Assembly: GCF_012767755.2 (NCBI RefSeq)
Contig: NZ_AP023189.1
Span: forward strand, 620,001 to 684,000
DNA length: 64,000 nucleotides
Direction: 5' to 3'
From: Pseudomonas tohonis
GTDB taxonomy: Bacteria; Pseudomonadota; Gammaproteobacteria; Pseudomonadales; Pseudomonadaceae
The notes under the pieces are model-generated. The model was not told where the DNA came from and ran no database searches. It saw nothing but the letters and a program-made list of their open reading frames with translations. The translations under genes and the position numbers were made by a program. Below, one piece after another: positions 45,919 to 64,000 of the stretch (position 1 is the first letter of the stretch; the number at the start of each line of letters is the position of its first letter).

Positions 45919-45934
45919 GATGCCGTGCCTCGCC

Positions 45935-47768: not shown

Positions 47769-47870
47769 GTCAATGCGGGGTCGTGGATGGGTAAGCCGGG
47801 TGAGCGGTACGGCCGGCCGACAGGTGTCGGTATGTCGGATGGATCGGGTGTAAATGGCGGCTATCTGCGC

Positions 47871-48881
47871 TCAAGTTCTTTGATCCGAAGGTGATCGTGC
47901 GGGGGTACGCATGCGCGTTCCGGGCGGTGCCACATCGCCTGTGGGGTGTTCGTGGCGGTCCTGGCTGGGACAGGCGGCGAAGCGGTTGCGGTAGCAGCGG
48001 GAGAAGTAGGAGGAGGATTCGAAGCCGCAGGCGAGGCCGATCTCCAGCACGCTCATGTCGGTCTGGCGCAGCAGCTGGCGAGCCTTCTCCAGGCGCAGGG
48101 CCAGGTAGAAGCCCGATGGCGTGTCGTCCAGGTGCAGGCGGAACAGGCGCTCCAGCTGGCGCGGGGTGACGCCCACCAGGGCGGCCAGCTCACAGGAGCC
48201 GAGGGGTTGTTCGCAGTGGCGCTCCATCTCGCCGATCACCTGCACCAGCTTGCGGTTGTGCACGCCGTAGCGACGGGTGATCTGCATGCGCTGGTGGTCC
48301 TGGCGGGTGCGGATGCGACCGAGGACGAACTGCTCGGAGACCTCCACCGCCAGCTCGTCGCCGTGGTCGCGGCCGATCAGGGTGAGCATCAGGTCGAGGG
48401 TGGCGGTGCCGCCGGCGCTGGTGATGCGGCGGCCGTCGATCTCGAACAATTCCAGGGTCGGCAGCAGGCCGGGGTAGCGTTCCTGGAAGGCTTCGATGGC
48501 TTCCCAGTGCAGGGTCAGGCGCTGGCGGGCGAACAGGCCCGCCTCGGCGAGGACGAAGCTGCCGGTGTCGATGCCGCCCAGGGTGGCGCCGTCGAGGTCG
48601 GCGCGCTTGAGCCAGTGGGCCAGGCGTGGCGTGTAGCTGGCCAGCGGCTCGAAGCCGGCGACCACGAACAGGCTGTCGCCGGCGCCGGGGCGTTCCAGCG
48701 CGGCGTCGACGTTCAGCGACATGCCGTTGCTGCCTTCCACCGGGCCGCCTTCCAGGCTCAGCAGGCGCCAGCGGTAGAGCTCGCCGCGAAAACGGTTGGC
48801 CACGCGCAGGGGTTCGATGGCGGACATCAGGCCCATCATGGAGAAACCGGGCAGCAGGAGGAACCACAGGGTCTGGGGCAT
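47871..48881 (-). CDS. cdhR: CdhR, AraC-family activator of carnitine catabolism
   Basis: A 336-residue GATase1-like AraC regulator, the paralogue of GbdR in this window: N-terminal LWFLLLPGFSMMGLMSAIEPLRVANRF and GGIDTGSFVLAEAGL, then two HTH units (CELAALVGVTPRQLERLF; SVLEIGLACGFESSSYFSRCYRNRF). It is divergent from caiX-cdhCAB, and CdhR is the known carnitine-responsive activator of that operon. The ATG at 48881 (MPQTLWFLL) is chosen; the frame to 48935 lacks the family N-terminus. Confidence 0.92.
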   Translation of the reverse strand: MPQTLWFLLLPGFSMMGLMSAIEPLRVANRFRGELYRWRLLSLEGGPVEGSNGMSLNVDAALERPGAGDSLFVVAGFEPLASYTPRLAHWLKRADLDGATLGGIDTGSFVLAEAGLFARQRLTLHWEAIEAFQERYPGLLPTLELFEIDGRRITSAGGTATLDLMLTLIGRDHGDELAVEVSEQFVLGRIRTRQDHQRMQITRRYGVHNRKLVQVIGEMERHCEQPLGSCELAALVGVTPRQLERLFRLHLDDTPSGFYLALRLEKARQLLRQTDMSVLEIGLACGFESSSYFSRCYRNRFAACPSQDRHEHPTGDVAPPGTRMRTPARSPSDQRT

Positions 48882-48947
48882 GGGCAGGCGTCCTCGCGAA
48901 GGCGTCGCCACACTAGAAGGCAGGACGCGGCGCAAGGCAATGCAGGT

Positions 48948-48982
48948 GGTCGTTCTCGTTCAACATTCGGTCGTTTTAGTTC
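48948..48982 (+). promoter_or_regulatory. Candidate CdhR site: two GGTCGTTNNNGTTC repeats
   Basis: GGTCGTTCTCGTTC (48948-48961) and GGTCGTTTTAGTTC (48969-48982) are direct repeats exactly 21 bp apart, two helical turns, as AraC-family activators use. They lie in the cdhR-caiX gap, 140 bases before caiX. Confidence 0.65.
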
Positions 48983-49121
48983 GATTTGCCCCCGGGTGCG
49001 CTGCGTAATCTGGCTGCAACGGGTGCAACAGGGCCCGCGAACGGCGGGGCGTGACTGACCCCGGCACAACAACAGACGGGCCACGCGGCCCGATAACCGT
49101 ATGGCTGTAGGGGAGCATTCG

Positions 49122-50060
49122 ATGAAAGGTCTCAATGCATTCGCGGGTTGCTGTCTTCTCACCCTGTTCAGTTCCACCCTGATGGCGGCGGACGACGCCA
49201 GTTGCCAGAAGATCCGCATCGGCGCGGTCGGCTGGACCGACGTGGTCGCGACCACCGCCGTGGCTTCCGAGCTGCTGGCCGGCCTCGGCTACGAAACCAC
49301 CCAGACCCAGGCGTCGCAGCAGATCATCTTCGCCGGCATCCAGAAGAAGCAGGTGGACGTGTTCCTCGGCTACTGGAAGCCGATCATGGATGACAACATC
49401 CAGCCCTTCCTCGACAGCGGCTCGGTCAAGGTGGCGCCGCAGCCGTCCCTGGACGACGCCGTGGCGGTGCTGGCCGTGCCCACCTACACGGCGGAGGAGG
49501 GGCTCAGGACCTTCGCCGACATCGCCCGCTACAAGGACCAGCTGGGCGGCAAGATCTACGGCATCGAGTCGGGGTCCGGCGCCAACACGGCGATCAAGAA
49601 GATGATCGACGAGAACCAGTTCGGCCTCGGCGGCTTCAAGCTGGTGGAGTCCAGCGAGGCGGCGATGCTCACTGCCGTGTCGCGCGCGGTGAAGAACCAC
49701 AAGCCGGTGGTGTTCTTCGGCTGGAAGCCGCACCCGATGAACATCCAGATGCCGATCACCTACCTCACCGGCAGCAATGACGTGTTCGGCCCCAACGACG
49801 GCGCCGCCACGGTCTCCACTGTCACGGCGCCGGACTTCGCCCAGCGCTGCCCCAACGCCGATCGCCTGCTGACCAACCTGCGCTTTTCCAGCGAACAGGA
49901 GAGCCGCCTGATGCAGCCGATCATGGAGCGCGAGGCGCCGTCCAAGGTCGCCCGCGACTGGCTCAAGGCCAACCCCGAGGTGGTCAAGGCCTGGCTGGCC
50001 GGGGTGACCACCTTCGACGGCAAGGACGGCGCCGAGACGGTCATCGCTTCGCTCAAGTAA
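49122..50060 (+). CDS. caiX: Carnitine ABC transporter substrate-binding protein
   Basis: A 312-residue periplasmic protein with signal [20 protein letters not shown]. The CbcX-type body reads [56 protein letters not shown] and [18 protein letters not shown] of the choline paralogues is changed to GSGAN, consistent with a different ligand. AGGGGAG precedes the ATG at 49122. It is first gene of the cdh operon; in P. aeruginosa CaiX binds carnitine and uses the CbcWV core. Confidence 0.92.
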
Positions 50061-50094
50061 GTCCCGACGCTTCACCGCAGTCATCGACCCACGC

Positions 50095-50118
50095 CCGTGC
50101 GCGGTCCGCCGCGCACGG
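50095..50118 (+). other. Intercistronic hairpin caiX-cdhC
   Basis: CCGTGCGCGG (50095-50104) and CCGCGCACGG (50109-50118) form a 10-bp stem with a TCCG loop. It has no U tract, so it probably protects the caiX end or attenuates rather than terminates. Confidence 0.65.
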
Positions 50119-50151
50119 CACCCGATCGCCCCGAGAAAGGATGTTGCAACC

Positions 50152-51039
50152 GTGAACCATGAAGTCATCGTCACCTGTGCGGTAACCGGCGCCGGCGATA
50201 CCGTCGGCAAGCACCCGGCCATCCCGGTCACCCCGAAGGAGATCGCCGCGGCCGCCATCGAGGCGGCCAAGGCCGGCGCCACGGTCGCCCACTGCCACGT
50301 GCGCGACCCGCGCACCGGCAAGCCCAGCCGCGACGTGGCGCTCTACCGCGAGGTGGTCGAGCGCATCCGTGAAAGCGACACCGATGTGATCATCAACCTC
50401 ACCGCCGGCATGGGCGGGGACCTCGAGATCGGCAAGGGCGAGCAGCCCCTGGAGTTCGGCGCCGGCACCGACCTGGTGGGCCCGCTGGAGCGGCTCAAGC
50501 ACGTCGAGGAGCTGTTGCCGGAGATCTGCACCCTGGACTGCGGCACGCTCAATTTCGGCGATGGCGACTTCATCTACGTCTCCACCCCGGCGCAGTTGCG
50601 TGCCGGCGCCAAGCGCATCACCGAGCTGGGCGTGAAGGCCGAACTGGAAATCTTCGACACCGGCCACCTGTGGTTCGCCAAGCAGATGCTCAAGGAAGGA
50701 TTGCTGGACGACCCGCTGTTCCAGATCTGCCTGGGCATCCCCTGGGGAGCACCGGCGGACACCACCACCATGAAGGCCATGGCCGACAACCTGCCGCCGG
50801 GCGCCACCTGGGCCGGCTTCGGCATCGGCCGCTCGCAGATGCCGATGGTGGCCCAGGCCATGTTGCTGGGCGGCAACGTGCGCGTCGGCCTGGAGGACAA
50901 CATCTGGCTGGACCGTGGCGTGCACGCCAGCAACGGCCAGTTGGTGGAGCGCGCGGTGGAGATCATCGAACGCCTCGGCGGCCGCGCCCTGAGCCCGGCC
51001 GAGGGCCGCGAGAAGATGAACCTCAAGCGTCGCGGCTGA
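50152..51039 (+). CDS. cdhC: 3-dehydrocarnitine cleavage enzyme (BKACE family)
   Basis: A 295-residue beta-keto-acid cleavage enzyme (DUF849) with a zinc-binding HxH in VAHCHVRD. It cleaves dehydrocarnitine with acetyl-CoA to give betainyl-CoA and acetoacetate. Other family marks are [21 protein letters not shown] and [14 protein letters not shown]. The start is a GTG at 50152 ([17 protein letters not shown]) with AAGGA upstream. It stands between caiX and cdhA in the known carnitine order. Confidence 0.93.
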
Positions 51040-51053
51040 CGTTTCCCCCGTAG

Positions 51054-51071
51054 CCCGGGCTTCGGCCCGGG
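51054..51071 (+). other. Intercistronic UUCG hairpin cdhC-cdhA
   Basis: CCCGGGC-TTCG-GCCCGGG, a 7-bp stem with the very stable UUCG tetraloop. The form GTAGCCCGGGCTTCGGCCCG recurs widely in Pseudomonas gaps, so it may be a small dispersed repeat. Confidence 0.65.
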
Positions 51072-51103
51072 AACCCCATAGCGGATACAGACCAGGAGCC
51101 ACC

Positions 51104-52069
51104 ATGGCCTTCATCACCCACATCAGGACCTTCGCCGCCCTTGGCAGCGGCGTCATCGGCAGCGGCTGGGTCGCCCGTGCCCTGGCCCACGGCCTCGACG
51201 TTGTCGCCTGGGACCCGGCACCCGGCGCCGAGGCCGCCCTGCGTGCGCGCATCGCCAACGCCTGGCCGGCGCTGCAGAAGCAGGGGCTGGCGCCCGGCGC
51301 CTCCCCGGAGCGGCTGCGCTTCGTCGAGACGGTCGAGGAATGCGTGCGCGATGCCGATTTCATCCAGGAAAGCGCGCCCGAGCGGCTCGACCTGAAGCTC
51401 GACCTGCACGCCCGCATCAGCGCGGCGGCGCGCCCGGAGGCGATCATCGGCTCCAGTACGTCCGGGCTGCTGCCCAGCGACTTCTACGCCGACGCCGTGC
51501 ACCCGGAACGCTGTGTGGTGGGGCACCCGTTCAACCCGGTCTACCTGTTGCCGCTGGTGGAGGTGGTGGGGGGTGAGAAGACCGCGCCCGAAGCCGTGCA
51601 GGCGGCGATCGAGGTCTACACCGCACTGGGCATGCGCCCGCTGCACGTGCGCAAGGAGGTGCCGGGCTTCATCGCCGACCGCCTGCTGGAAGCGCTGTGG
51701 CGCGAGGCGCTGCACCTGGTCAACGACGGCGTGGCCAGCACCGGCGAGATCGACGATGCGATCCGCTTCGGCGCGGGGTTGCGCTGGTCCTTCATGGGCA
51801 CCTTCCTGACCTACACCCTGGCGGGCGGCAACGCGGGCATGCGCCATTTCATGGCGCAGTTCGGTCCGGCGCTGCAGTTGCCCTGGACCTACCTGCCAGC
51901 CCCGGAACTGACCGAGGCGCTGATCGACAGCGTGGTGGAAGGCACGCGCGAGCAGCAGGGTTCGCGCAGCATCGCCGAACTGGAGCGTTATCGTGATGAC
52001 TGCCTGCTGGCGGTGCTGGACGCGGTGAAGGCGACCAAGGAAAAACACGGCTTCGCCTTCGCCGACTGA
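51104..52069 (+). CDS. cdhA: L-carnitine dehydrogenase
   Basis: A 321-residue NAD-dependent dehydrogenase of the 3-hydroxyacyl-CoA dehydrogenase family that oxidises L-carnitine to 3-dehydrocarnitine. The NAD motif is [19 protein letters not shown]; the family blocks are [44 protein letters not shown] and [19 protein letters not shown]. There is no CoA-binding extension, as expected for a carnitine enzyme. It is third in the cdh operon. Confidence 0.94.
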
Positions 52070-52099
52070 GGTGCCAACCGCTTCCCGCCCTTACCCAAC

Positions 52100-52124
52100 G
52101 GCCCTCCCCTTCGCGGCGAGGGCC
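52100..52124 (+). other. Intercistronic hairpin cdhA-cdhB
   Basis: GGCCCTC (52100-52106) and GAGGGCC (52118-52124) pair around an 11-base loop in the 74-bp gap. It is the third hairpin in the same operon. Confidence 0.5.
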
Positions 52125-52143
52125 TATCGCCAGGAACCGCCCC

Positions 52144-52623
52144 ATGAGCCACGCCCTGACCACCCACAGCACCCTCATCCCCGTCGAGTGGGTGGACTAC
52201 AACGGCCACCTGCGCGACGCCTTCTACCTGCTGATCTTCAGCTACGCCACCGATGCGCTGATGGCGCGCATCGGCCTCGACGAGGCGGGGAGGGCTTCGA
52301 CCGGGCATACGCTCTACACCCTGGAGTGCCACCTCAACTACCTCGCCGAGGTGAAGCTGGGCGCACGGGTGGAAGTGCGCACCCAGGTATTGGCCAGCGA
52401 CGCCAAGCGCCTGCACATCCACCACGGGTTGTACTACCCCGGCGGCGATGAGCTGCTGGCGGCCAGTGAACAGATGCTGATGAACGTGGACAGCGAGAGC
52501 GCGCGTTCGACGCCCTTCGCCGAAGCGGTGGCCGGGTGTGTGGCGGGGTTGGTGGAGGCGCACCGGCAGTTGCCACTGCCGGTGCACGTCGCGCGGGTCA
52601 TCGGCTTGCCACCCGCGCGTTGA
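52144..52623 (+). CDS. cdhB: Betainyl-CoA thioesterase (hotdog fold)
   Basis: A 159-residue 4-hydroxybenzoyl-CoA thioesterase-like protein. PVEWVDYNGHLRDAFYLLIFSYATDAL carries the family Asp/Asn-Gly-His motif and helix, followed by YTLECHLNYLAEVKLGARVEV. It should hydrolyse betainyl-CoA to glycine betaine, linking carnitine to the betaine pathway. It is the last gene of the cdh operon, ending 15 bp from the convergent response regulator. Confidence 0.92.
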   Translation: MSHALTTHSTLIPVEWVDYNGHLRDAFYLLIFSYATDALMARIGLDEAGRASTGHTLYTLECHLNYLAEVKLGARVEVRTQVLASDAKRLHIHHGLYYPGGDELLAASEQMLMNVDSESARSTPFAEAVAGCVAGLVEAHRQLPLPVHVARVIGLPPAR

Positions 52624-52638
52624 GCACGGGCCGCCCGG

Positions 52639-53265
52639 TCAGACCGTGGGAAGGGCGTAGCGGCGGGCGAAGTCGATGAGGTCGACCAGGTTGCGGGTCT
52701 TCAGCTTGTCCATCAGGCGGGACTTGTAGGTGCTCACCGTCTTGTGGCTGATGAACAGCTGCTCGGCGATCTCCTTGTTGTTCTTGCCGTTGGCAAGGTT
52801 CTGCAGCACCGCGAGCTCCCGGTCTGACAGGCTGTCGAGCAGCTGGGTGTCCTCGCCGGCCTGGGACGGCACGGGCAGGTGCACGGTGCTGGGGAACAGG
52901 CTGTAGCCGGAAAGCACCGACTTGGTCGCGGCGATCAGGCTGACGGCCTGTTCCTGCTTGGACAGGTAACCGGTGGCGCCGGCCTGCAGGCAACGGTTGG
53001 CATAGAGCGCCGCGGGCAGCGAAGTCAGCACCAGCAGCTTGAGGTTGACGTCCATCGCCGCCAGGCGGGTGAGTACCTCCATGCCGTCCAGCTTGGGCAC
53101 GGCGATATCGAGGATGACCAGGTCCGGCCTGAGCGAACGGGCCAGGCTCAGGCCTTCCACGCCGTTCTCGGTCTCGCCGACGATGTCGTAGCCCTCACGC
53201 TCCAGCAGGACGCGTGTGGCGAAGCGGATCATGGGCTGGTTGTCGATAAGCAGGATCTTACTCAT
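52639..53265 (-). CDS. LuxR/BvgA-type response regulator 1
   Basis: A 208-residue REC-HTH regulator: acceptor D53 (LVILDIAVPKLDG), acidic pair near D8 in LLIDNQ (the second acid is Asn), then LuxR HTH from about 143 (LSDRELAVLQNLANGKNNKEIAEQLFISHKTVSTYKSRLMDKL). BvgA/EvgA/FimZ subgroup. The ATG at 53265 has AAGGAGA; the frame to 53340 is ignored. It is divergent from the BvgS-like hybrid kinase, a natural cognate, across a 461-bp AT-rich gap. It may act like RocA, controlling the nearby chaperone-usher genes. Confidence 0.9.
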   Translation of the reverse strand: MSKILLIDNQPMIRFATRVLLEREGYDIVGETENGVEGLSLARSLRPDLVILDIAVPKLDGMEVLTRLAAMDVNLKLLVLTSLPAALYANRCLQAGATGYLSKQEQAVSLIAATKSVLSGYSLFPSTVHLPVPSQAGEDTQLLDSLSDRELAVLQNLANGKNNKEIAEQLFISHKTVSTYKSRLMDKLKTRNLVDLIDFARRYALPTV

Positions 53266-53726
53266 CCGTTCATTTCTCCTTGGTGAGTTTCCCGTTGCTC
53301 CACGGCACGCACACAAAGCCGTTCGAAACAGGGTTGGCACTTCTTCCGATTGGATTTCTTGCTATTACCGGTAGAGGCGGCGCGAACAAGTTATCCATAG
53401 CCGGCGATAGTCCGTATCGGACTGTCCTTGCATATGGGATATTTCTTCAGAAGTTATGTTGATGTCGTTCAGACAATTCCTAATGTTTATTGCGTACGCC
53501 AAACGAGGCGACACGAGCTGCCATAGGCTTTTAGGCTTGGCCGCTCATGGAATTGGCTGAATATGTGAGGCGAGAAGTATATTCGCGGTGCGCGCCGTGA
53601 TCGGTTGTTTGGGAAGTTTCCTACAATTCATGTAGGCAAGTTTTTAGGCTTCCTCAGTCATTGAATATCAGTCACTTCCTGTAACGGGCATTGTTCCAAT
53701 CCAGCAGGCAGAAGGAGGTCGCCACG
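53266..53726. promoter_or_regulatory. AT-rich divergent regulatory region of the two-component genes
   Basis: A 461-bp gap that is clearly less GC-rich than the rest of the window. It has AGTCCG-TAT-CGGACT (53409-53423), ATTCCTA (53476-53482), TAGGCTT twice 8 bp apart (53524, 53532), and TTTCCTA (53617-53623) facing TAGGCAA (53633-53639), then TAGGCTT (53645). These look like repeated regulator heptads. No gene is supported in it. Confidence 0.65.
53617..53651. promoter_or_regulatory. Candidate BvgA-like heptad cluster upstream of the sensor gene
   Basis: TTTCCTA (53617) and inverted TAGGCAA (53633), with CCTACA-ATTCA-TGTAGG as the core (53620-53636), plus TAGGCTT (53645). BvgA is known to bind inverted TTTC(C/T)TA heptads. 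About 75-110 bases before the TTG start. Confidence 0.5.
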
Positions 53727-56700
53727 TTGCGCCGCATTTCGTGGTTTTGCGTATCCGCCCGGGCGCTCCTGCTGGGTCTCTTTCTGCTGTCACCGATGGC
53801 GGTCGAATCCGCCCCCGTGGGAGCTGCGCCCCTGCATCTGTCGAGCCAGTTGCAGGTCGACCAGCAGGAGCTGGCCATATCCGAGAGCGACTGGCACTGG
53901 TTGCGGCAGAAGCGCGACCTGGTGCTCGGGGTGGCCGGCGATGCCGAGGCGCCGATGGCGATGCTGCAGCGCGACGGCAGTTTCGAGGGCATCACGGCGG
54001 ACACCACCGCGCTGGTCGGGCAGATGCTGGGCATGCGCATCGTCCTGCGCGAGCTGCCGGACCAGGCCGCCCTCGCGCGGGCACTGGAGTCGGGCGAGAT
54101 CGACATGACGACCGCGTCCAGTCACGGCCTGCGCGGTGCCAGCGTGGCGCGCAGCCAACCCTTCGCCATCGAGCACGCGGCGCTGTTCCGACGCCAGGAG
54201 GACACGCGCGAGTTCCCCGCCGACCTGGCCGGGCTGACCGTGGTCACCACCACCGAGTACCTGGGCGACCCGGCCCTGCGCCGCGGATTTCCCGGCGCGC
54301 GCCTGGTGGCCGCGGATTCGGTGGACGGGGCGATGGCCGCAGTGGCCTTCGGCAAGGCCGACCTGTACCTCGGCGATGTGCTTGCCGCCTATTACCGGAT
54401 CAACCGGGGCTTCCACGGGATGGTGCGCTTCGAGCGCTTCGCCGAGCTCAAGGCCGATGGCGTGGCCTTCATCGTGCGCTCGGACGATGCCCCGCTGCTG
54501 CGCGGCCTGGACGCCACGCTCCATGCCCTTGGCCGCTCGCGCCTGGATGAGATCACCCGGCGCTGGATCGGCAGCGGCGTGATACCGGCGCTGGAGCCCC
54601 TGCCCCTGACGCAGGAAGAGCGCCGCTGGGTGGAGCGTCACCCGGTGGTGCGCCTGGTGATCGACGACGACATGGCGCCCATGGCCTTCTTCGATGCCCA
54701 GGGCCAGTTCCGCGGTATCACCGCCGACCTGCTGGAAATGACCTCCCTGCGCACCGGCCTGCGCTTCGAGGCGATCAGCCGTCGTGGTGGCTTTACCGAC
54801 CAGATCAGCAGCCTGCAGCAAGGCAGCGCCGACCTCGCGATCCTCAGCCAGGGGCGCGAACGCGAGGCGCTGCTGCGCTTCACCCGCCCGGTGATGACCA
54901 ACCCCTTCGTGCTGGTGGCGCCGCGCGGCGACGACGGCCTCGCCGAACCGCTCGACGGCATGGAGGGCAAGCGGCTCGCCATCGCCAGGGGGCACGTGGC
55001 GTTGGCGGAGGTGCGGGACACCTACCCCGGTGCCGAAATCGTCGAGGCGGGCTCGACGCTGGATGCGATGAACCTGGTCTACGGCGGCGGCGCCGATGCG
55101 GCCCTGATGTCGCTGCCCACGGCCCGCTACTACGTGGTCCGGCTGTTTCGCAATCGCCTGGCGGTGGCTGAGCTGGTGCCCATCGAGCCGGCCACGGCGA
55201 ACTTCGCCATGCGCCGGGCCGATGTCGAGCTGCAGTCGATCCTCGACAAGGCCCTGGCGAGCCTGGCACCGGACGAGCTGAACGCTGCCGCCAATCGCTG
55301 GCGCGGCAGCCCGGCCATGAGTGCGCAGACCTGGCGTGACTACAACCAGCTGATCCTGCAGATCGTGATCGGTGCGCTGGTGCTGCTGGCCCTGGCCCTG
55401 GCCTGGGGCCTTCGCCTGCGCCGCGAGGTGCGCAAGCGCATGACGGCGGAGCGGCAGCTGAACGACGAGCTGCGCTTCATCGAGACGCTGATCGATTGCA
55501 TGCCGCAACCGGTCTTCGTGCGTGATGTCGAGGGCCGCCTGCTGTCATGCAACCGCAGCTACCTGGACACCCTGGGGTTGGCGCGCGAAGACATCCTGGG
55601 GACGACGGCCCCGGAGCTGCCCCTGGCCTTCGAGGCGGCGCCGCTCTTCCACCAGGGCTACCTGCAGGCGATGGTCGACGGGCAACTGGTGCGTGGCGTG
55701 CACGAGTTGGAACTGGGCGGGCGCAGGCTGTGGATCGAGCATTGGACCCAGCCCTTCCAGGACTCGACCGGCGCGGTCAAGGGCGTGATCTGCGGCTGGA
55801 TCGACATCACCGAGCACCATCATCTGGTCCGTGAGCTGGAGGAGGCGAAGAACCTGGCCGACGACGCCAGCCGAGCCAAGACCGCCTTCCTCGCGACCAT
55901 GAGCCACGAGATCCGCACTCCGTTGAACGCGGTGATCGGCATCCTCGAATTGGCCCTCAAGCGCGCGGAGCACGGCCCGATCGACCCGGCCGGCATCCAG
56001 GTGGCCTATGGGTCGGCCCGCAGCCTGCTGACCCTGATCGGCGACATCCTCGACATCGCCCGTATCGAGGCGGGACGCCTGAGCCTGGCCCCGGCGCGCG
56101 CCAACCTGCGCGAGCTGGTGGAGTCGGTGGCCCGGGTGTTCGACGGCCTGGCCCGGCAGAAACGCCTGGAGCTGGTGCTGGAAATCGATTCGAGCATCCA
56201 GGGCGATGTGCTGGTCGATGCCATGCGCTTCAAGCAGATCCTCTCCAACCTGGTCAGCAATGCCATCAAGTTCACCCCTGAAGGGCGGGTCGGCGTGCGC
56301 GTCACGGGGGACCTCGCCGAGCCCGGGATGCTGCGGGTGGTGCTGGTGGTGGAGGACAGCGGCATCGGCATCGCGCCCGAGGACCAGGCGCGGCTGTTCC
56401 AGCCCTTCTCCCGGGTCGAGCAGGCCGATCAATTGACCGAAGGTACCGGCCTGGGCCTGGTCATCTGCCGCTCGCTCTGCACGATGATGGGCGGCCGGCT
56501 GGCCCTGGACAGCGAGCCGGGGCGCGGCACGCGGGTCGAGGTGGAGCTGCGCCTGCACCGCCTCGACCCCGTTCCCGAGCCCGTCCCCACGCCGGGCCCC
56601 CTGGCCGGCCCGGCAAGGCGCCTGCGGGTACTGGTGGTCGACGATCACCCGGTGAACCGGCAGATTCTCCAGCAGCAACTGGTCTTCCTCGGTCACGAGG

Positions 56701-57380
56701 CCGAGGAGGCGGCGGATGGCCAGGACGCCCTGCAACGCTGGCGCGCCCGGCACTTCGACGCGGTGGCCACCGATTGCCACATGCCCCGCATGAGCGGGGC
56801 CGAGCTGACGGCGGCGATACGCCGCGAGGAGCGCGATGGCGTGCGGCCTCGCACGCTGGTCCTCGGGCTCACCGCCGATGCGCAGGCCGACGAGATCGAG
56901 CGGGGCCTGGCTGCCGGGATGGACGAGTGCCTGGCCAAGCCCATCGGGCTCGCCGCCCTGCAGCGGGTCTTCGGTGTCGGCGAAGGGGAGCTGCTCGAGG
57001 CGGAGGGCCCTTCGGTCACCGGCTTGTTCGACCTGTCCCCGTTGCAACCCCTGACCGGCGGCGACCCGCTGCTGGTGCGCAACCTGCTCGGCGAACTGAT
57101 GGCCACCAACGGCAAGGACCTCGCCCTGCTCGGCATGTTGCTGGAGCGGGGTGATAGCGCGGGCCTGTCCGAGCTGGCGCATCGGTTGATTGGCGCAGCC
57201 CGCGTCGTGCGGGCCGAGGAGGTCGTCGCGGCGTGCCAGCGGCTGATGGCGGCCTGCGCGGTGCCCAGTGCCCCTGACGGCCTGCGCCGGGGTGTCGAAG
57301 ACCTGGTGCGCGCGCTGGAGCGTCTGCAACTGGAGTTGAGTGATTACCTGACCGAAGGGGCTGCGGCACCCGCGCCCTGA
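53727..57380 (+). CDS. BvgS/RocS-type hybrid sensor histidine kinase
   Basis: A 1217-residue inner-membrane sensor. It has a signal peptide (about 1-28), two tandem Venus-flytrap SBP_bac_3 domains (about 45-275 and 290-525), TM near 542-563, PAS near 588-700, HisKA with H727 in MSHEIRTPLN, HATPase (N box LVSNAIKF, G box EDSGIGIAPED), REC with D1016 (VATDCHMPRMSG), and HPt with H1152 (LAHRLIGAAR). This is the full BvgS/EvgS/RocS1 phosphorelay. The start is a TTG at 53727, eight bases after AAGGAGG; upstream frame codons lack a signal. It is flanked by two LuxR regulators and a REC-EAL protein. Confidence 0.93.
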   Translation: MRRISWFCVSARALLLGLFLLSPMAVESAPVGAAPLHLSSQLQVDQQELAISESDWHWLRQKRDLVLGVAGDAEAPMAMLQRDGSFEGITADTTALVGQMLGMRIVLRELPDQAALARALESGEIDMTTASSHGLRGASVARSQPFAIEHAALFRRQEDTREFPADLAGLTVVTTTEYLGDPALRRGFPGARLVAADSVDGAMAAVAFGKADLYLGDVLAAYYRINRGFHGMVRFERFAELKADGVAFIVRSDDAPLLRGLDATLHALGRSRLDEITRRWIGSGVIPALEPLPLTQEERRWVERHPVVRLVIDDDMAPMAFFDAQGQFRGITADLLEMTSLRTGLRFEAISRRGGFTDQISSLQQGSADLAILSQGREREALLRFTRPVMTNPFVLVAPRGDDGLAEPLDGMEGKRLAIARGHVALAEVRDTYPGAEIVEAGSTLDAMNLVYGGGADAALMSLPTARYYVVRLFRNRLAVAELVPIEPATANFAMRRADVELQSILDKALASLAPDELNAAANRWRGSPAMSAQTWRDYNQLILQIVIGALVLLALALAWGLRLRREVRKRMTAERQLNDELRFIETLIDCMPQPVFVRDVEGRLLSCNRSYLDTLGLAREDILGTTAPELPLAFEAAPLFHQGYLQAMVDGQLVRGVHELELGGRRLWIEHWTQPFQDSTGAVKGVICGWIDITEHHHLVRELEEAKNLADDASRAKTAFLATMSHEIRTPLNAVIGILELALKRAEHGPIDPAGIQVAYGSARSLLTLIGDILDIARIEAGRLSLAPARANLRELVESVARVFDGLARQKRLELVLEIDSSIQGDVLVDAMRFKQILSNLVSNAIKFTPEGRVGVRVTGDLAEPGMLRVVLVVEDSGIGIAPEDQARLFQPFSRVEQADQLTEGTGLGLVICRSLCTMMGGRLALDSEPGRGTRVEVELRLHRLDPVPEPVPTPGPLAGPARRLRVLVVDDHPVNRQILQQQLVFLGHEAEEAADGQDALQRWRARHFDAVATDCHMPRMSGAELTAAIRREERDGVRPRTLVLGLTADAQADEIERGLAAGMDECLAKPIGLAALQRVFGVGEGELLEAEGPSVTGLFDLSPLQPLTGGDPLLVRNLLGELMATNGKDLALLGMLLERGDSAGLSELAHRLIGAARVVRAEEVVAACQRLMAACAVPSAPDGLRRGVEDLVRALERLQLELSDYLTEGAAAPAP

Positions 57381-57393
57381 GCCGTCGAAGGCG

Positions 57394-58602
57394 TCAGGAC
57401 GAAAGCCGGGTGGTCGCTGGTGGGCGGGTATCGCCGATCCATCGACGGAAGGCCGACCCGTCCATGGGCCGGGCGAAGTAGTAGCCCTGGGCCTGCACGC
57501 AACCCAGCTCCATCAACAGTGTCTTCTGCTCCAGGGTCTCCACGCCCTCGACCACCAGGGAAATACCCATCGCCTCGGCCAGGGTCACGCTGCTGCGAAT
57601 GACGGCGCCGCAGCGGGGCTGGCTTTGCAGCTTGCGGATGAACGAGGCGTCGAGCTTGATCTGGCTGAAGGGCAGTGCACACAACCGGTCGAGCGAGGAG
57701 TAGCCGGCACCGAAGTCGTCCATGGCCAGGCCGCAGCCCATCAGGCGCAGGCGCACGAGGTTCTCCAGGCTGGTCGCCGGGGCGCGCAGCAGGCCCGTCT
57801 CGGTCACCTCGAAGGTCAGCCCCTCGCCGGGCAGGCCGCTGTCCATCAGGCGTCGTGCCACCCGCTCGACCATCTGCCGGTCGCCCAGCTGGATGGGCTG
57901 GATGTTGATGGCCAGCTCGACCTGCCGGCCCTCTTGCGCCAGTTCCTGCTGCACCGCCAGCCCCTGGTCCAGCAAGCGCCAGAACAGGCGATCCACCAGG
58001 CCGCTGGCCTCCATCTGCGGCAGGAACTGTGCCGGCGACAGGATGCCGTGCTGGGGGTGGCGCCAGCGAGCGAGCATCTCGGCGCCACGCAACGCACCGT
58101 CGCGCATGTCGACCTTGGGCTGGAACCACGCTTCGAACTCGTCGCGTTCGAAGCCTTCGGCTATCTCCGCCAGGGACGGCAGCTCCATCACTTCGGGGGA
58201 TGCGGGCAACTGCTCCTGCTCGGGCGCGAAGCCGCGCAGCAGGCGGGCGGCCCGGTTGATGTCGAACGGCTTGCCGAGATCGCCGAGGAATTCCACGCCG
58301 AGGCAGCGGATCATCGAGATGGTGGCCTGGCGCAGCACCGGCTCGACAGCGCTGGCGAGCATCACCGCGCGCAGCAGGCCCCGCTGGCTGGCATGGCGGA
58401 GGAAGGCCAGGCCGTCCATGCCGGCCATGCGCAGGTCGCAGAGCACGATGTCGACACCGCCGCAGGCTTGTAGCATGGCCAGCGCCTGGTCGCCGTCCTC
58501 CGCTCCATGGATCCGGTCCAGGCCCATTCTCTCCAGTGCGGCTATCGCCAGCAGGCGCTGGAAGGGTTCGTCTTCCAGCACCAGAATGCTTATGTTCTTC
58601 AT
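57394..58602 (-). CDS. RocR-like REC-EAL c-di-GMP phosphodiesterase
   Basis: A 402-residue response regulator. REC at 1-120 has acceptor D56 (IVLCDLRMAGMDG) and conserved K111. The EAL domain follows from about 150: FEAWFQPKVD, EML at 175-177 in place of EAL, AINIQP, FEVTETGL, MDDFGAGYSSL, IKLDASFI and VVEGVET. The metal and catalytic Glu/Asp residues are kept, so activity is likely. In P. aeruginosa RocR competes with RocA1 for the phosphoryl group from RocS1. It is convergent with the sensor (13-bp gap) and divergent from regulator 2. Confidence 0.92.
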   Translation of the reverse strand: MKNISILVLEDEPFQRLLAIAALERMGLDRIHGAEDGDQALAMLQACGGVDIVLCDLRMAGMDGLAFLRHASQRGLLRAVMLASAVEPVLRQATISMIRCLGVEFLGDLGKPFDINRAARLLRGFAPEQEQLPASPEVMELPSLAEIAEGFERDEFEAWFQPKVDMRDGALRGAEMLARWRHPQHGILSPAQFLPQMEASGLVDRLFWRLLDQGLAVQQELAQEGRQVELAINIQPIQLGDRQMVERVARRLMDSGLPGEGLTFEVTETGLLRAPATSLENLVRLRLMGCGLAMDDFGAGYSSLDRLCALPFSQIKLDASFIRKLQSQPRCGAVIRSSVTLAEAMGISLVVEGVETLEQKTLLMELGCVQAQGYYFARPMDGSAFRRWIGDTRPPATTRLSS

Positions 58603-58679
58603 CGGGTTTCGCTCGGCAGATGTGTGATGCCGGTCACGTTACTGAGGAGGCTCGGCAACGAGCTAGGCGAAGATTCCCG

Positions 58680-58698
58680 GAAATTTGTAGGAAATTTC
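58680..58698. promoter_or_regulatory. Inverted repeat upstream of response regulator 2
   Basis: GAAATTT-GTAGG-AAATTTC, perfect 7-bp arms, containing the heptad TAGGAAA (58688-58694), 72 bases before the regulator start and 78 before the divergent EAL gene. Confidence 0.5.
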
Positions 58699-58769
58699 AT
58701 CAGTGCTTGGGCGTGGCCATGGTTGCCGTGCTTCGGCGTAGAGCCCGCGTCGCCCCAGAAGAGACCGAC

Positions 58770-59405
58770 ATGAGAAGTGCCCTGATAGTCGACGATCATC
58801 CCGTCATCCGCCTCGCCGTGCGCATGCTGCTGGAACGCAATGGCATCCAGGTGCTGGCGGAGACGGACAACGGTGTCGATGCGCTGCAACTGATCCGCCA
58901 GCACGAGCCCGACATCGTCATCCTCGATATCGGTATTCCGCGCCTGGACGGGCTCAAGGTGATCGCCCGCATCCGCGCCCTGGGGCTCGACAGCCATGTG
59001 CTGGTGCTCACCTCGCAACCCGCCGAGAGCTTCTGCCAGCGCTGCATGCAGGCGGGCGCCAAGGGATTCGTCAGCAAGGAAGAGGACCTGCAGAACCTCG
59101 TCATCGCGATCAACTCGATCAGCGCGGGGTTTTCCTTCTACCCGGCCGATGCACTGCAGGCGGGCCAGACCGCGCTGACCAGCGAGGCCGAGCTGGTCGC
59201 ACGTCTGTCCAACCAGGAGCTGATGGTGCTGCAGTACCTGGCGGCGGGTCTCTCCAACAAGCAGATCGGCGACCTGATGCTGCTCAGCAACAAGACCGTC
59301 AGTACCTACAAGAGCCGCATCCAGCAGAAGCTCAACCTCGGCTCGTTGCTGGAACTGATCGAATTCGCCCGGCGCAACGACCTGGCCAACAGCACCGCTT
59401 CCTAG
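58770..59405 (+). CDS. LuxR/BvgA-type response regulator 2
   Basis: A 211-residue REC-HTH regulator with intact acid pocket (LIVDDHP) and acceptor D53 (IVILDIGIPRLDG). The LuxR HTH is LSNQELMVLQYLAAGLSNKQIGDLMLLSNKTVSTYKSRIQQKL. It is a close paralogue of regulator 1 at 52639, with the same length and D position. The ATG at 58770 is chosen; the frame upstream runs into the EAL promoter. It is co-directional with, and 302 bp upstream of, the chaperone-usher genes, so it is the most likely direct regulator. Confidence 0.91.
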   Translation: MRSALIVDDHPVIRLAVRMLLERNGIQVLAETDNGVDALQLIRQHEPDIVILDIGIPRLDGLKVIARIRALGLDSHVLVLTSQPAESFCQRCMQAGAKGFVSKEEDLQNLVIAINSISAGFSFYPADALQAGQTALTSEAELVARLSNQELMVLQYLAAGLSNKQIGDLMLLSNKTVSTYKSRIQQKLNLGSLLELIEFARRNDLANSTAS

Positions 59406-59707
59406 CCGGGCCCCTCCCTGGCGAAGGGCCTCCCCTGCGTACTCCCGCGCCCTGACTTTGCGCATCTCCGGATCCGACCCCTGCCTCATTTTTGGAGTTG
59501 ACGGCTTTTTCCTGGCTTTTTAAGGATTTTTCCTACGGTTTTTCCTGGCGCTCGATGCCGGATGGCGGGTGTGTCGCTCGATATCATCTTCCCCCTGGAA
59601 AAGGCGCGCCGCCACTGCGGCCCTCGTTCCCGCCTTCCCCGCCACGAATCAGGACCAATCGCCACCCGCCCGGCCCGCCCCGGGCGGCGGCCATTCAGGA
59701 AAAACCG
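59406..59707 (+). promoter_or_regulatory. Upstream region of the chaperone-usher genes
   Basis: A 302-bp gap. Heptad-like words are regularly placed: TTTCCTG (59508), inverted TAAGGAT (59521), TTTCCTA (59529-59535) and TTTCCTG (59541), spaced 21 and 12 bp. This is a promoter-scale cluster about 160-200 bases before the chaperone start. No gene is seen; any ribosome site in it is weak. Confidence 0.6.
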
Positions 59708-60442
59708 ATGCACCCCACCGCAAGGATCACCCGATTGATCGCCGCACTCTTCATCGCCTCCTTCCTGCCGAGCGTGCAGGCCGGCATGGTGGTGAACGGC
59801 ACCCGTTTCATCTATCCCGCCAAGCAGCAGGAAATCAGCGTGCGGGTGAGCAACGACGGTACGGAGCCGTCCCTGGTGCAGGCCTGGATCGATCGCGGCG
59901 ACCCGTCGAGCAAGCCGGAGCAGGCCGATGCGCCCTTTTTGCTCACGCCGCCGATCTTCCGCCTCGACCCGGGCAAGGGGCAGAGCCTGCGCCTGGCGTT
60001 CACGGGCGAGGCACTGCCCACTGACCGCGAGACGGTGTTCTGGCTCAACCTCCTGGATGTCCCGCCACAACCCGCGGCGGACAGCGGCAACTCCATGCAG
60101 TTCGCCATCCGCACCCGCCTGAAACTCTTCTATCGACCGTCCGGCTTGCCGGGCAGCGCGTCCGGAGCGGCCCAGCAGATCAGCTGGCGACTGGTGCAGA
60201 ACGGCGCGCAAAGCGTGCTGCGAGCGAGCAACCCCAGCGCCTTCCATGTGTCGTTCAGCGATGTCTCGCTGAATGTCGGCGGGCGGGCGCACCAGGCCGG
60301 CGATGGGATGGTGCCGCCGCTCGGAAGCCGCGACTTCCCCCTGCCGGGCGCGGTGCAGCGTGGAGCGGCCGCCACGGTGGTGACGAAGTGGATCAACGAC
60401 TACGGCTCATCCATTGGGCACGAGGCGAGGCTGGAGCCGTGA
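59708..60442 (+). CDS. Periplasmic fimbrial chaperone (PapD-like)
   Basis: A 244-residue immunoglobulin-fold chaperone that folds and delivers pilins to the usher. The signal peptide ends VQA; then MVVNGTRFIYPAKQQEISVRVSN (first strands), LVQAWID, LTPPIFRLDPGKGQSLRL and VFWLNLLDVPP. The ATG at 59708 has AGGAAA. It precedes the usher by 77 bp. No pilin gene lies before it, unlike many CUP operons. Confidence 0.93.
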   Translation: MHPTARITRLIAALFIASFLPSVQAGMVVNGTRFIYPAKQQEISVRVSNDGTEPSLVQAWIDRGDPSSKPEQADAPFLLTPPIFRLDPGKGQSLRLAFTGEALPTDRETVFWLNLLDVPPQPAADSGNSMQFAIRTRLKLFYRPSGLPGSASGAAQQISWRLVQNGAQSVLRASNPSAFHVSFSDVSLNVGGRAHQAGDGMVPPLGSRDFPLPGAVQRGAAATVVTKWINDYGSSIGHEARLEP

Positions 60443-60519
60443 GCAGGCGGCTCGTGCGCGAAAGGCGCTGATGCCGCTCGATCGTTCGCGCGCCATTCAT
60501 CGATGCGCCAGGTACGACT

Positions 60520-63162
60520 ATGAAAGCTCTTTCAGACAGGTATCCGGGATCGGCCACGCGTGGCGCTCGCAGGGTGCGTCTCGCGCCCCGAGGGGGACGG
60601 CTCAAGGTCATGGCCGTGGTCCTTGCCTCCCTGGCGCTCAGCGACTGGAGCCAGGTGGACGCGGACGAAGGCGTTTCCCCGGCCCGTTATGCCGTGTTCA
60701 ACCCGGCGTTCTTCGGTAGCGGTGCGGAGGAGGCCGTCGACCTGTCGCGCTTCGCCAACGCAAACGCCCTGCCTCCCGGCACCTATCTCCTGGATATCTA
60801 CGTCAACCAGACCTGGAGGGGGCGGCACGAGTTGCGGGTGCTCAGCGAGGGCGAGGGCGCTGCGGTCATCCAGCGCTACTGCTTCAAGCCCGAGCACGTC
60901 GGCACCTTCGGCATCGAGCTGGCGAACCTGCCGGACCCCCAGGCCGCTCGGCAGTCGATTACGGACAACGAGGATTGCGTCGAGCTGGATCGCCTGGTGC
61001 CCCAGGCGCAGGTCGAGGTCGATCTGTCCGAGCTGAGCGCCCAACTGAGCATCCCGCAGGCGTACCTGGGGCGACAGGCACGCGGGCACGTGGACCCCCG
61101 TGACTGGGATGCCGGGGTCACGGCCGGCTTCATCGGCTACAACGCCAGCGGCTACCGCAGCCACAGCGGCGGCGTCGGTTCGAACCAGCTGTCCCTGGGC
61201 CTTAACAATGGTCTCAACATCGGTGAGTGGCGCCTGCGCTCCAATGGCTACTACAACCGCTCCAGCCAGGATGGCGGCCCTACCCGCAGCCACTACAGCA
61301 ACGCCAGCACCTATGCCCAGCGCGACCTCACCGGCCTGCGCTCGCAGCTCACGGTCGGTGACTACTACACCCCTGGCGAGCTGTTCGAGAGCGTGCCTTT
61401 CAGAGGCGTGCAGATCAGTTCCGACGACCGCATGCTCCCCGACTCCCAGCGCGGTTTCGCCCCCGTGATCCGGGGCGTGGCGGAAACCAACGCCAAGGTC
61501 ACCGTGCGCCAGGGACAATCGGTGCTTTACGAGGCGACAGTGGCGCCCGGCCCCTTCAGCATCGACGACCTCTACGACTCGGGTTACTCCGGTGACATCG
61601 AGGTGACGGTGACCGAGGCCGATGGCCGCCAGCGCTCCTTCGTCGTGCCCTACGCCTCGGTGGCCCAGTTGCTGCGACCCGGTGTATCGCGCTTCAGCGT
61701 GACGGCCGGCGAGTACCGGGACCGCAGCCTGGACGCATCGCCGAAGTTCGTCATGGGCACCTACCAGCGCGGTGTGACCAACGCCTTCACCGGCTACCTG
61801 GGCAGCATCGTGGCCGAGAGGTACATGGCCGCCCAGGGCGGTGTCGCGATCAGCACCGAGCTTGGGGCCGTCGCGTTCGATGTCACCCGCTCGCATGTCG
61901 CCGAGCGTCCCGTCGCCGACTCCGCCCCCAGGAGCGGCCAAAGCTACCGGGTCACCTTCAGCAAGCTACTGGACAGCACCCAGACCAACTTCACCCTGGC
62001 TGCCTACCGCTTCTCCAGCGAGGGATATCTCGAGTTCGGCGACTACGCGCAGTCCGTCGGCAACCCGGAAAGCCGCCTCTACCGCCAGCGCAGCCGATTG
62101 CAGGCCAACATCAGCCAGCCCCTGGGGGCGAACTTCGGCAGCCTCTACCTGAGCGGGTCGGCACAGAACTACTGGAACGCCGGGCAGCGCAGCGACATGA
62201 CCTTCCAGGCCGGCTACTCCAACGGTTTCAGCTGGGGAACCATGAGCACCTCGGCAGGCCGGACGCGCATGGGCTCGGGATACGAAAACCAGTACCTGCT
62301 GTCCTTCAGCGTGCCCCTGGGGCGCGACGTGCGCTCGCCCTTCCTCAGTAGCTCGGTCAGCTACGCCGGCAAGCGCAGCAACACCCAGGCCAGCCTCAGC
62401 GGCGTCGCGGGCGAGCGCTCGCAGATGAACTACAGCCTCTACGGCTCGCGCAGCAGCGACCAGGGCGACCGGTCCAGCAGCGCCGGCGGCAGCGTCCACT
62501 ACTTCGCACCGGCGGCGTCGCTCAACGCCAGCTACAGCGAGGGCACCGGTTACCGCCAGCAGAGCGTCGGTATCGGTGGCAGCCTGGTGGCCCACCCAGG
62601 TGGGATCAACTTCACCCAGAGCCAGAGCGAAACCTATGCCGTCGTCGAGGCCAAGGGGGCGGAAGGGGCCTATGTCAGCAACGACATGAACGCCCGTGTC
62701 GGCAGCAACGGTTACGCGGTGGTCGGCGGCCTCGCCCCCTACCGCCACAACCAGGTGGCGATCGACCCGGTCGGCACCCTGCGCAACGTCGAGTTGCAGA
62801 TCACCGAGCAGGCGGTGGCCCCGCGCCATGGTGCCGTGGTGATGCTCAGCTACCCGACCATCACCGGCGTGCCGGTGTTGCTGCGCATCCTTCGCGAAGA
62901 TGGCCAGAACCCGCCGCTGGGCTCCGACGTCATCGATGCCCAGGGCGTGTCCCTGGCCATGGTGGGGCAGGGGGGGCGGGCATTCCTGCGCGGGCTCCCC
63001 CGTGAGGGCGTGCTGATCGTCCGTTGGGGCGAAGGGCCGGACAAGGCCTGCCGGGTCGACTACCAACTGCCGGAGCAGGACCCGGACGACCCCAGCTACC
63101 AACAGGTCGAGGTGCGCTGCGTCACACTCGGTGGGCGGACAGAAATCGCGCTAGCCGAATGA
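60520..63162 (+). CDS. Outer-membrane fimbrial usher (PapC/FimD-type)
   Basis: An 880-residue usher pore. The N-terminal domain begins YAVFNPAFFGSGAEEAVDLSRF and YLLDIYVNQTW; a large barrel with SQRGFAPVIRGVAETNAKV (plug region) and YDSGYSGDIEVTVTEADG follows; the C-terminal domains have GAVVMLSYPTITGVPVLLRI and a Cys pair. The first 30 residues before the hydrophobic signal (MAVVLASLALSDWSQVDA) are Arg-rich. The ATG at 60610, with AAGG upstream, may be the true start, leaving about 850 residues, close to usual. Confidence 0.94.
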   Translation: MKALSDRYPGSATRGARRVRLAPRGGRLKVMAVVLASLALSDWSQVDADEGVSPARYAVFNPAFFGSGAEEAVDLSRFANANALPPGTYLLDIYVNQTWRGRHELRVLSEGEGAAVIQRYCFKPEHVGTFGIELANLPDPQAARQSITDNEDCVELDRLVPQAQVEVDLSELSAQLSIPQAYLGRQARGHVDPRDWDAGVTAGFIGYNASGYRSHSGGVGSNQLSLGLNNGLNIGEWRLRSNGYYNRSSQDGGPTRSHYSNASTYAQRDLTGLRSQLTVGDYYTPGELFESVPFRGVQISSDDRMLPDSQRGFAPVIRGVAETNAKVTVRQGQSVLYEATVAPGPFSIDDLYDSGYSGDIEVTVTEADGRQRSFVVPYASVAQLLRPGVSRFSVTAGEYRDRSLDASPKFVMGTYQRGVTNAFTGYLGSIVAERYMAAQGGVAISTELGAVAFDVTRSHVAERPVADSAPRSGQSYRVTFSKLLDSTQTNFTLAAYRFSSEGYLEFGDYAQSVGNPESRLYRQRSRLQANISQPLGANFGSLYLSGSAQNYWNAGQRSDMTFQAGYSNGFSWGTMSTSAGRTRMGSGYENQYLLSFSVPLGRDVRSPFLSSSVSYAGKRSNTQASLSGVAGERSQMNYSLYGSRSSDQGDRSSSAGGSVHYFAPAASLNASYSEGTGYRQQSVGIGGSLVAHPGGINFTQSQSETYAVVEAKGAEGAYVSNDMNARVGSNGYAVVGGLAPYRHNQVAIDPVGTLRNVELQITEQAVAPRHGAVVMLSYPTITGVPVLLRILREDGQNPPLGSDVIDAQGVSLAMVGQGGRAFLRGLPREGVLIVRWGEGPDKACRVDYQLPEQDPDDPSYQQVEVRCVTLGGRTEIALAE

Positions 63163-63516
63163 TCCCGGCTACCGTGCGGCTCGCCATGCCTATGCGCGGG
63201 CGCTCGGGCCGGTGCTGATGCAACCCTGGTCAGCACGCGATCCCTGACACCTGGGGTTCCGAGTCGGCGGCCTCGCCACTCGATCGCAGGCGCGCCAGCC
63301 TTCATGGCGTCTAATGGACCATCCCCGCGCGGCCTCGACCGGCATGCAGGCAGGCCTGCCTCGGCAGGTCGATGGCCGCGGACTCCAGCTGTCGCGCCAG
63401 CTCGCTGCTCGATCAAGCGAATCCTTCCTGCCTTGCCGCCATGCACGACCCAGTGTGATGGCGGCTCGCAGTCCCGCGTACCGGATCGGTGTTCGCGGTG
63501 TGCTCGGCATGCGGCC
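63163..63516. other. Gene-free stretch between usher and pilin-like gene
   Basis: About 354 bases at the convergent junction. It holds a 14-bp palindrome AGGCAGGCCTGCCT (63348-63361) but no open frame with a ribosome site, signal peptide or fimbrial motif on either strand. A pilin gene expected here is absent. Confidence 0.5.
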
Positions 63517-63825
63517 TCAGTTGTAGACCACCGTGATGATCCCGGCGTCGCCCGTGCGGGAGGCGATGCTGGTCATGCTCACCGAGCTGGTTTCACCCAG
63601 GCCTGCGCAATGGCCGCGCCCGCTGGGCTCCGATCGGCCGATGGGGCTGAGGCCGCTACGGCGTCCTACATGTTCGAGCCAGGTGCTTGCAGGGGTATCG
63701 CAAAGGTCCTTGCAGATGCTTCCTACGAAAGTGATCTGTCCTAGGGCCGGTGACGCGTTTTCCGCTTGGGCCAGGCCGGCGACGCAGATGAGGGCGAGGA
63801 GGGGAATATTCAGTAGTCGTTTCAT
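63517..63825 (-). CDS. Short secreted protein, type 1 pilin-like
   Basis: A 102-residue protein with a clear signal peptide (MKRLLNIPLLALICVAGLAQ), preceded by AAGGAG seven bases before the ATG. The mature start GQITFVGSICKD, an early cysteine with CDTPASTW and a second CAGLGE, and a C-terminal GDAGIITVVYN with Tyr next to the end recall type 1 fimbrial subunits. It is much shorter than usual pilins (150-180), so it may be a minimal subunit or a regulator of assembly. It is convergent with the usher. Family is tentative. Confidence 0.65.
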   Translation of the reverse strand: MKRLLNIPLLALICVAGLAQAENASPALGQITFVGSICKDLCDTPASTWLEHVGRRSGLSPIGRSEPSGRGHCAGLGETSSVSMTSIASRTGDAGIITVVYN

Positions 63826-63865
63826 CTCAGCACTCCTTACAGGCTGAACTGAGTAAAAATCAGAT

Positions 63866-63925
63866 GGCTCCTACGATCCAGACTTTGGCGATCCGGATTT
63901 TTTGTAGGTTCTAACTGTAGGAGCC
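63866..63925. promoter_or_regulatory. Inverted repeat upstream of the pilin-like gene
   Basis: GGCTCCTAC (63866-63874) and GTAGGAGCC (63917-63925) are perfect 9-bp arms 42 bases apart; a further TGTAGG is at 63903. They lie 41-100 bases before the start at 63825. The TAGGA core recalls the heptads of the neighbouring regulators. Confidence 0.5.
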
Positions 63926-64000
63926 TGATGGTTTCGCATTATCCCGGTCCTTCGGCGCGAGGTTGTGAACCCGGTCCGGTTCGGTGGTGAGTCGGACTAA

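Follow-up and report, generated by a model that had tools for sequence, protein, structure and literature searches.

The Roc1 system of Pseudomonas aeruginosa (RocS1-RocR-RocA1, also known as SadARS) regulates cupC, and on PAPI-1 the PvrSR/RcsCB system is found with cupD. Here we describe a locus of Pseudomonas tohonis in which a hybrid kinase, a REC-EAL protein and two response regulators (REG1 and REG2) adjoin a fimbrial chaperone and usher. The locus lies in a 64-kb window, the whole stretch of DNA analysed (G000:C1:620001-684000, where G000 is the 6.83-Mb genome of the window), and was compared with a set of 18 genomes of the genus and a set of 148 genomes of the family that includes those 18. 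A split gene arrangement and a shared promoter design are evident from the sequence, and it is likely that a Roc-type phosphorelay at one fixed site controls a classical chaperone-usher fimbria whose gene set is split. Feature coordinates are collected in Table 1.

The kinase has the make-up of a Roc1-type kinase, with periplasmic flytraps (SBP_bac_3 in two stretches) and PAS, HisKA, HATPase, REC and HPt domains recognized by Pfam, and the phosphorelay motifs SHEIRTP (HisKA), TDCHMP (REC) and AHRLIG (HPt) are present. Its best matches among solved sensors are BvgS (4q0c, E-value 2.1e-77) and EvgS (9ilw, 6.6e-47). The REC-EAL protein is 58% identical to P. aeruginosa RocR (3SY8) across residues 1-385, and all 15 RocR positions checked are unchanged, among them the phospho-accepting Asp and those that we take to be catalytic; the EAL motif itself reads EML. 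The other 15 full-length REC-EAL copies of the locus are 57–62% identical to RocR, and those of second Roc-like loci in three genomes 42.5–44%. These second loci (L098, L099 and L100, in G009, G007 and G013) encode kinases about 42%, REC-EAL proteins 42–43% and REG2 proteins 56–58% identical to those of the window.

REG1 and REG2 share 45% identity (91 of 202 aligned positions) and are nearly alike in the recognition-helix region. REG1 is 83–99% identical across the 18 genomes (68% for a second copy in G009), and in 17 of them its acidic pocket carries Asp-Asn ('IDN') where response regulators normally have Asp-Asp. The exception is G009, which has two REG1 copies with Asp-Asp, two usher matches, and no kinase, REC-EAL or REG2 match at this site (L087).

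The main domains of the kinase, REG1, REG2, REC-EAL, chaperone and usher all exceed their Pfam cut-offs, and open reading frames (ORFs) and Pfam matches bear out the gene set described in a sequence-only reading of this DNA: a flytrap kinase with REC and HPt, two regulators and a REC-EAL protein around a chaperone-usher pair. That reading took the locus for a possible variant of a Roc/chaperone-usher pathway module. The similarity to RocR and the boxes that link the promoters of the module with those of the fimbrial genes (see below) favour this view; its further claim that no standard pilin is present goes too far, as a pilin is encoded elsewhere behind an equivalent promoter.

Sixteen of the 18 genus genomes have matches to the whole set of four regulatory genes at the same site; in G007 the REC-EAL match is limited to roughly the first 86 residues, and G009 has nothing beyond REG1-type genes. 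Both flanks, a carnitine side and the gene that we take to be gbcA, are present in 15 of the 18; in the stretches fetched, G016 and G009 show the gbcA side only and G005 the carnitine side only. The slot beside REG2 is variable. It holds a co-directional chaperone-usher pair in six genomes, a convergent operon in eight, its usher being a different one (35–37% identical), and other arrangements in G005 and G009; the comparison of the 18 loci found no chaperone-usher genes in the slots of G011 and G012. By these comparisons the Roc-type module is fixed at one chromosomal site, and the neighbouring slot holds different fimbrial operons in different species.

Among the six genomes with the co-directional usher, three (G006, G014 and G002) encode a roughly 175-residue pilin between REG2 and the chaperone, and thus a complete pilin-chaperone-usher cluster. 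No such cluster is present at the window locus: the REG2-chaperone gap is about 300 bases in G000 (302), G001 and G017, with no pilin inside. A Pfam Fimbrial search of G000 found three tandem pilins at 3.2386–3.2409 Mb, about 2.56 Mb from the window locus, and two adhesins at 0.755–0.757 Mb; neither of the two ushers of this genome lies at those positions. The orphan pilins are of FimA type, carrying a Fimbrial/FimA domain and a conserved Cys pair. When one of them is used as the query, G002, G014 and G006 show linked pilins that are 58, 51 and 42% identical to it, each being the sole match in its genome, and the single pilins of G017 and G001 are 66% identical. The orphan pilins of G000, G001 and G017 lie between the same merR-like and lysR-like neighbours. 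Weaker matches (28–35%) in G015, G009, G003 and G013 are other fimbrial genes. The Pfam Fimbrial matches in G000, G001 and G017 (five, three and three, at E-values up to 0.001) are solely these pilins and adhesins. Usher searches found one other usher in each of the three genomes; that of G000 is of the Spore Coat U type, and no further classical usher was found in G000. The best solved match of these pilins is chain a of PDB entry 10ss, which is FimA-like by sequence and whose name, 'Ferrous iron transporter B', looks to be wrong.

The two adhesins of G000 are two-domain proteins encoded about 72 kb from the window locus, with a C-terminal Fimbrial domain and an MrkD-like match that falls below the curated cut-off in one of them. 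For a model of one adhesin (predicted local distance difference test score, pLDDT, 86) the nearest PDB entry by E-value is the CupB6 tip adhesin, with whole-chain template modelling (TM) scores of only about 0.3–0.4 and better matches for single domains. In G002 a cluster of five adhesin genes, of which one is inverted relative to the others, lies some 71 kb away from the usher (L177 7226-13291).

The promoters of these scattered genes share a common design. The window has four copies of the heptamer TTCCTAC against 1.26 expected, a count that one of 100 shuffles attains. Three lie at module promoters (kinase, REC-EAL/REG2 and chaperone) and the fourth within the gene for a 102-residue protein, P102. 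In 15 annotated loci (those of G009, G005 and G007 are unannotated and left out) there are 57 matches, 50 of them in 32.8 kb of intergenic and seven in 171.5 kb of coding sequence, with gene borders being approximate and 'intergenic' including stretches with unlisted ORFs; two of the seven 'coding' matches (L048 and L096) actually lie at the kinase promoter. The exact sequence GAANTTTCCTAC has two matches in the whole of G000, at the kinase promoter and in the REC-EAL/REG2 gap, and none in the control. The TGTAGG half of the kinase-promoter box is, by eye, retained in 12 of 14 genomes compared. At chaperone and pilin promoters TTCCTAC stands 45 bases before TATCAT (once TATTAT), and a search of the 18 genomes for TTCCTAC-N44-46-TATYAT returned 11 matches, nine of them at chaperone or pilin promoters, with one match for the reversed control. 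G000 accounts for three (one before the chaperone, two before orphan pilins), G001 and G017 for two apiece (one chaperone, one pilin), and the linked pilins of G002 and G006 for one each; by eye, G014 keeps the 45 bases with an altered box, CTCCTAC. The other two matches, L186 (G006 6107792) and L184 (G011 5004395), have no known fimbrial gene beside them. In the chaperone promoter a sigma-70 scan gave no hits, so the -10 element there is assigned from conservation only.

With pilins at a distant site behind a matching control sequence, the 'missing' subunit appears to be relocated rather than absent. The statement that there is no standard pilin holds for the locus, but pilins are encoded elsewhere in the genome. 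GC-rich hairpins lie 3' of the three linked and three orphan pilin genes (z -1.4 to -6.4, by the same fold analysis as for the chaperone-side hairpin in Table 1). The chaperone-side hairpin is possibly a remnant of a pilin-chaperone spacer, and the pattern would fit a move of promoter, pilin and hairpin as a unit while a promoter and hairpin also stayed behind.

Boxes are also seen at other chaperone-usher clusters. In the Spore Coat U-type cluster of G000, at 1.17 Mb, the first pilin is preceded by two TTCCTAC boxes (L004 4160 and 4213), so that cluster may share the regulon. A separate cluster of G015 (usher 56% identical, with a linked pilin and adhesin) has TTCCTAC about 150 bases before the pilin (L042 11839); the 45-base -10 pattern is not present at this box. 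Membership of the adhesins in the box regulon was considered and is not supported: one box lies near one G000 adhesin, and none was seen upstream of the adhesins of G001, G017, G002 and G006, one G001 upstream region ending at a contig end.

We propose that the periplasmic flytraps sense a ligand and that the kinase would pass phosphate via its REC and HPt domains to REG2 (perhaps also REG1) and to REC-EAL. Phosphorylated REG2 would bind the box and jointly switch on the kinase, REC-EAL/REG2, the chaperone-usher pair, P102 and the remote pilins; REC-EAL would compete for phosphate and lower cyclic di-GMP (c-di-GMP), and the chaperone-usher pair would secrete the pilins encoded in trans.

We considered whether the operon is instead decaying, with the chaperone and usher as leftovers after pilin loss and the remote pilins as unrelated orphans. 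Three genomes have no linked pilin, and the match to the G017 usher is split between two frames near the 3' end (L038 12280-12474). In G000 and G001, however, usher and chaperone are both open, and the ratio of nonsynonymous to synonymous substitution rates (dN/dS; computed, like the synonymous rate dS, for G000 versus G001) is 0.096 for the usher and 0.19 for the chaperone, though both lineages are without a linked pilin; purifying selection appears to act on the usher. The chaperone promoter is retained with its box and 45-base spacing in all three genomes, and the remote pilins share the promoter design and are 42–58% identical to the linked pilins of relatives. Decay is, on balance, unlikely. 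The pilins have dN/dS values of 0.35–0.45 (three copies versus G001) and the adhesins 0.64–0.67.

For 20 non-regulatory, non-fimbrial genes (gbcA, one of whose rows was in a wrong frame, has that row left out) dS ranges from 0.07 to 0.50, with 14 at 0.23–0.40; the outliers are the MOSC and thioesterase genes at about 0.5 and the NUDIX, monooxygenase, AraC-like and one more gene at 0.07–0.13. REG1 has a dS of 0.36, and REG2, chaperone, usher and P102 have 0.04–0.14, low values not being confined to the REG2-to-P102 block. Those of the kinase (0.64, from an alignment with a stop that we take to be the gene's own end and that the alignment extends beyond) and REC-EAL (0.78) exceed all 20 comparison genes. 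Between G000 and G001/G017 the kinase is 79% and REC-EAL 76% identical, and REG1, REG2 and usher are 97–99% identical. These values would be explained by a mosaic history in which the REG2-to-P102 block (perhaps with NUDIX) was exchanged recently and the kinase/REC-EAL alleles diverged or were replaced.

A second alternative is that an ordinary Roc locus happens to adjoin independent fimbrial genes, the box belonging to another regulator and the split being coincidental. The connection of REG1 and REG2 to the box is drawn only from location, and looser forms of the box are near background. Against this, the exact 12-base box is found in G000 solely inside the module, and across the annotated loci the same promoters again carry TTCCTAC; we regard this alternative as improbable.

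Several observations nevertheless weigh against control of a split fimbria by the Roc-type module. The 13-base box at up to two mismatches is near background (137 matches versus 89 for the reversed control), and the chaperone box is itself such a two-mismatch site. Two of the 11 promoter-pattern matches lie at no known fimbrial gene, yet have the 45-base spacing, and the third orphan pilin of G000 has an altered box, TTCCCTAC, with the spacing kept (by eye). The adhesins do not have the shared promoter design. As the genomes are related, recurring boxes are not independent, and selection was measured over a short distance on a possibly exchanged block. The chaperone-usher pair could also serve another substrate. 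Two of the eight one-mismatch boxes in G000 are at orphan pilins; of the remaining six, three lie within and three between ORFs (by rough ORF calls), and none is recognisably fimbrial from the ORF starts.

P102 is encoded beside the usher on the opposite strand. With one relative in each of the 18 genus genomes, present at all 18 sites, it is evidently a real gene; in a search of the 148 family genomes (up to 32 candidates scored per genome) the sole match outside the genus is in G146 and is weak (E-value 4e-4), partial and with a stop. Its N-terminus resembles a signal peptide and leads into a pilin-like motif, G-x-I-x-F-x-G...C. None of the 18 members has a Pfam match, and a complete pilin domain is lacking; the family profile matches FimA (6y7s, E-value 1.1e-3) and the N-termini of two pilins (6–7e-4), and fimbrial-subunit models match up to six of the 18 members, the window's own not among them. 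In 12 of the 18 genomes the P102 promoter has CCTAC and then a TTTTACT-type element at 45 (nine genomes) or 46 (three) bases. The boxes of the window P102 are CTCCTAC and ACCTAC, not TTCCTAC; in G016, G015 and G003 the equivalent position has CCTAC, paired with CTTTACT, and no CCTAC was found within 130 bases of P102 in G011, G012 and G013. The sequence-only reading had set P102 apart as the possible exception to the lack of a pilin, but it is unlikely to be a substitute major pilin because relatives carry it together with full pilins. That the chaperone-usher pair now exports P102 as its main substrate, making a minimal fibre, is very improbable: the protein has the start and motif described and its gene adjoins the usher, but it is also found beside full-pilin loci and at the G011 and G012 loci without chaperone-usher genes, has no full pilin domain and gives a poor AlphaFold model (pLDDT 64). 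A further, improbable reading is that the Roc locus is a fixed regulatory platform with an exchangeable slot and that P102 is a genus-specific accessory mini-pilin, with a donor-strand-like start and pilin-like last strand but lacking a complete immunoglobulin domain. Expressed jointly through the shared promoter design, it might cap, terminate or report on whatever fimbria the slot holds, and in doing so it could give the flytrap kinase periplasmic feedback.

Table 1. Features of the Roc-type locus, in window coordinates.
Feature	Position	Strand	Evidence or remark
REG1, NarL/LuxR-type response regulator, 208 residues	52639..53265	-	Pfam Response_reg 1.1e-24, GerE 2.1e-23
Putative Roc box at kinase promoter, inverted repeat TTTCCTACA-N5-TGTAGG	53617..53636	+	
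RocS1/BvgS-type hybrid kinase	53691..57380	+	Pfam; TTG start per ORF listing
RocR-type REC-EAL response regulator, c-di-GMP phosphodiesterase (EAL) domain	57394..58602	-	3sy8 RocR 9.4e-146
Putative Roc box GAAATTTCCTACA, between divergent REC-EAL and REG2	58686..58698	-	
REG2, RocA1/EvgA-type response regulator, 211 residues	58770..59405	+	Pfam REC and GerE; EvgA 5f64 1.1e-44
Predicted chaperone promoter, TTCCTAC-N45-TATCAT	59530..59587	+	Same layout at linked and orphan pilins
GC-rich hairpin before chaperone	59655..59706	+	RNA fold z -2.03, 9 of 200 shuffles equally good
PapD-type periplasmic chaperone	59708..60442	+	PapD_N 3.1e-45, PapD_C 6.9e-17
Classical outer-membrane usher, 880 residues	60520..63162	+	Usher 2.9e-156, PapC_N, PapC_C
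P102, small, predicted secreted protein, 102 residues, weakly pilin-like	63517..63825	-	Relative once in each of 18 genus genomes
Predicted P102 promoter, CCTAC-N45-TTTTACT	63852..63908	-	

The left flank consists of carnitine-type genes (an OpuAC-family binding protein, a beta-keto acid cleavage enzyme, a 3-hydroxyacyl-CoA dehydrogenase and a thioesterase-like ORF), and the right flank starts with a NUDIX-like gene followed by ORFs that are presumably gbcA, gbcB, ltaA and glyA. No RNA families were found in window positions 48000-64000 and no tRNAs in 45000-64000. The nearest named relative found for the usher is a copy, 97% identical, in a record of Pseudomonas alcaligenes MRY13-0052.

Because chaperone-usher genes are generally interpreted as operons, a pair that lacks a pilin is readily dismissed as a remnant. 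In the present case a promoter pattern searched across the genome (box, 45 bases and -10) would reconnect an assembly machine with pilins 2.56 Mb away, which suggests a route to trans substrates of other 'incomplete' fimbrial loci. The locus also offers a natural example of pilins evolving apart (dN/dS 0.35–0.45) from the machine that would assemble them (0.10–0.19), and a candidate binding site for Roc regulators that is open to testing.

Compared with Roc1, the window locus has in common a BvgS-like kinase with HPt, a REC-EAL phosphodiesterase and a LuxR-type regulator, and differs in having two regulators, of which the additional one, REG1, is strongly conserved and has a changed acidic pocket, and in that its fimbrial genes directly adjoin the module, with pilins in trans. 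REG2 is likened to RocA1 by its REC and helix-turn-helix make-up; the sequence match itself is to EvgA (5f64). As in PvrSR/RcsCB with cupD, a REC-EAL protein, hybrid kinase and LuxR-type regulator adjoin chaperone-usher genes, but the window has one kinase rather than two, and its REC-EAL protein falls far below the PvrR family cut-off (NF052596, 268 bits versus 580). BvgAS and EvgAS provide the closest solved sensor domains and, in EvgA, the closest match to REG2, and the box resembles what we take to be BvgA/EvgA sites; the window locus adds an EAL phosphodiesterase and two regulators, and its putative targets are fimbrial. The usher is of PapC/FimD type (PapC_N, Usher and PapC_C), and the pilins of the usual family, chaperone, usher and two-domain adhesins are like those of classical FimA/FimF-type fimbriae and the CupB6 adhesin, except that in the window genome the genes lie at three sites rather than in one cluster.

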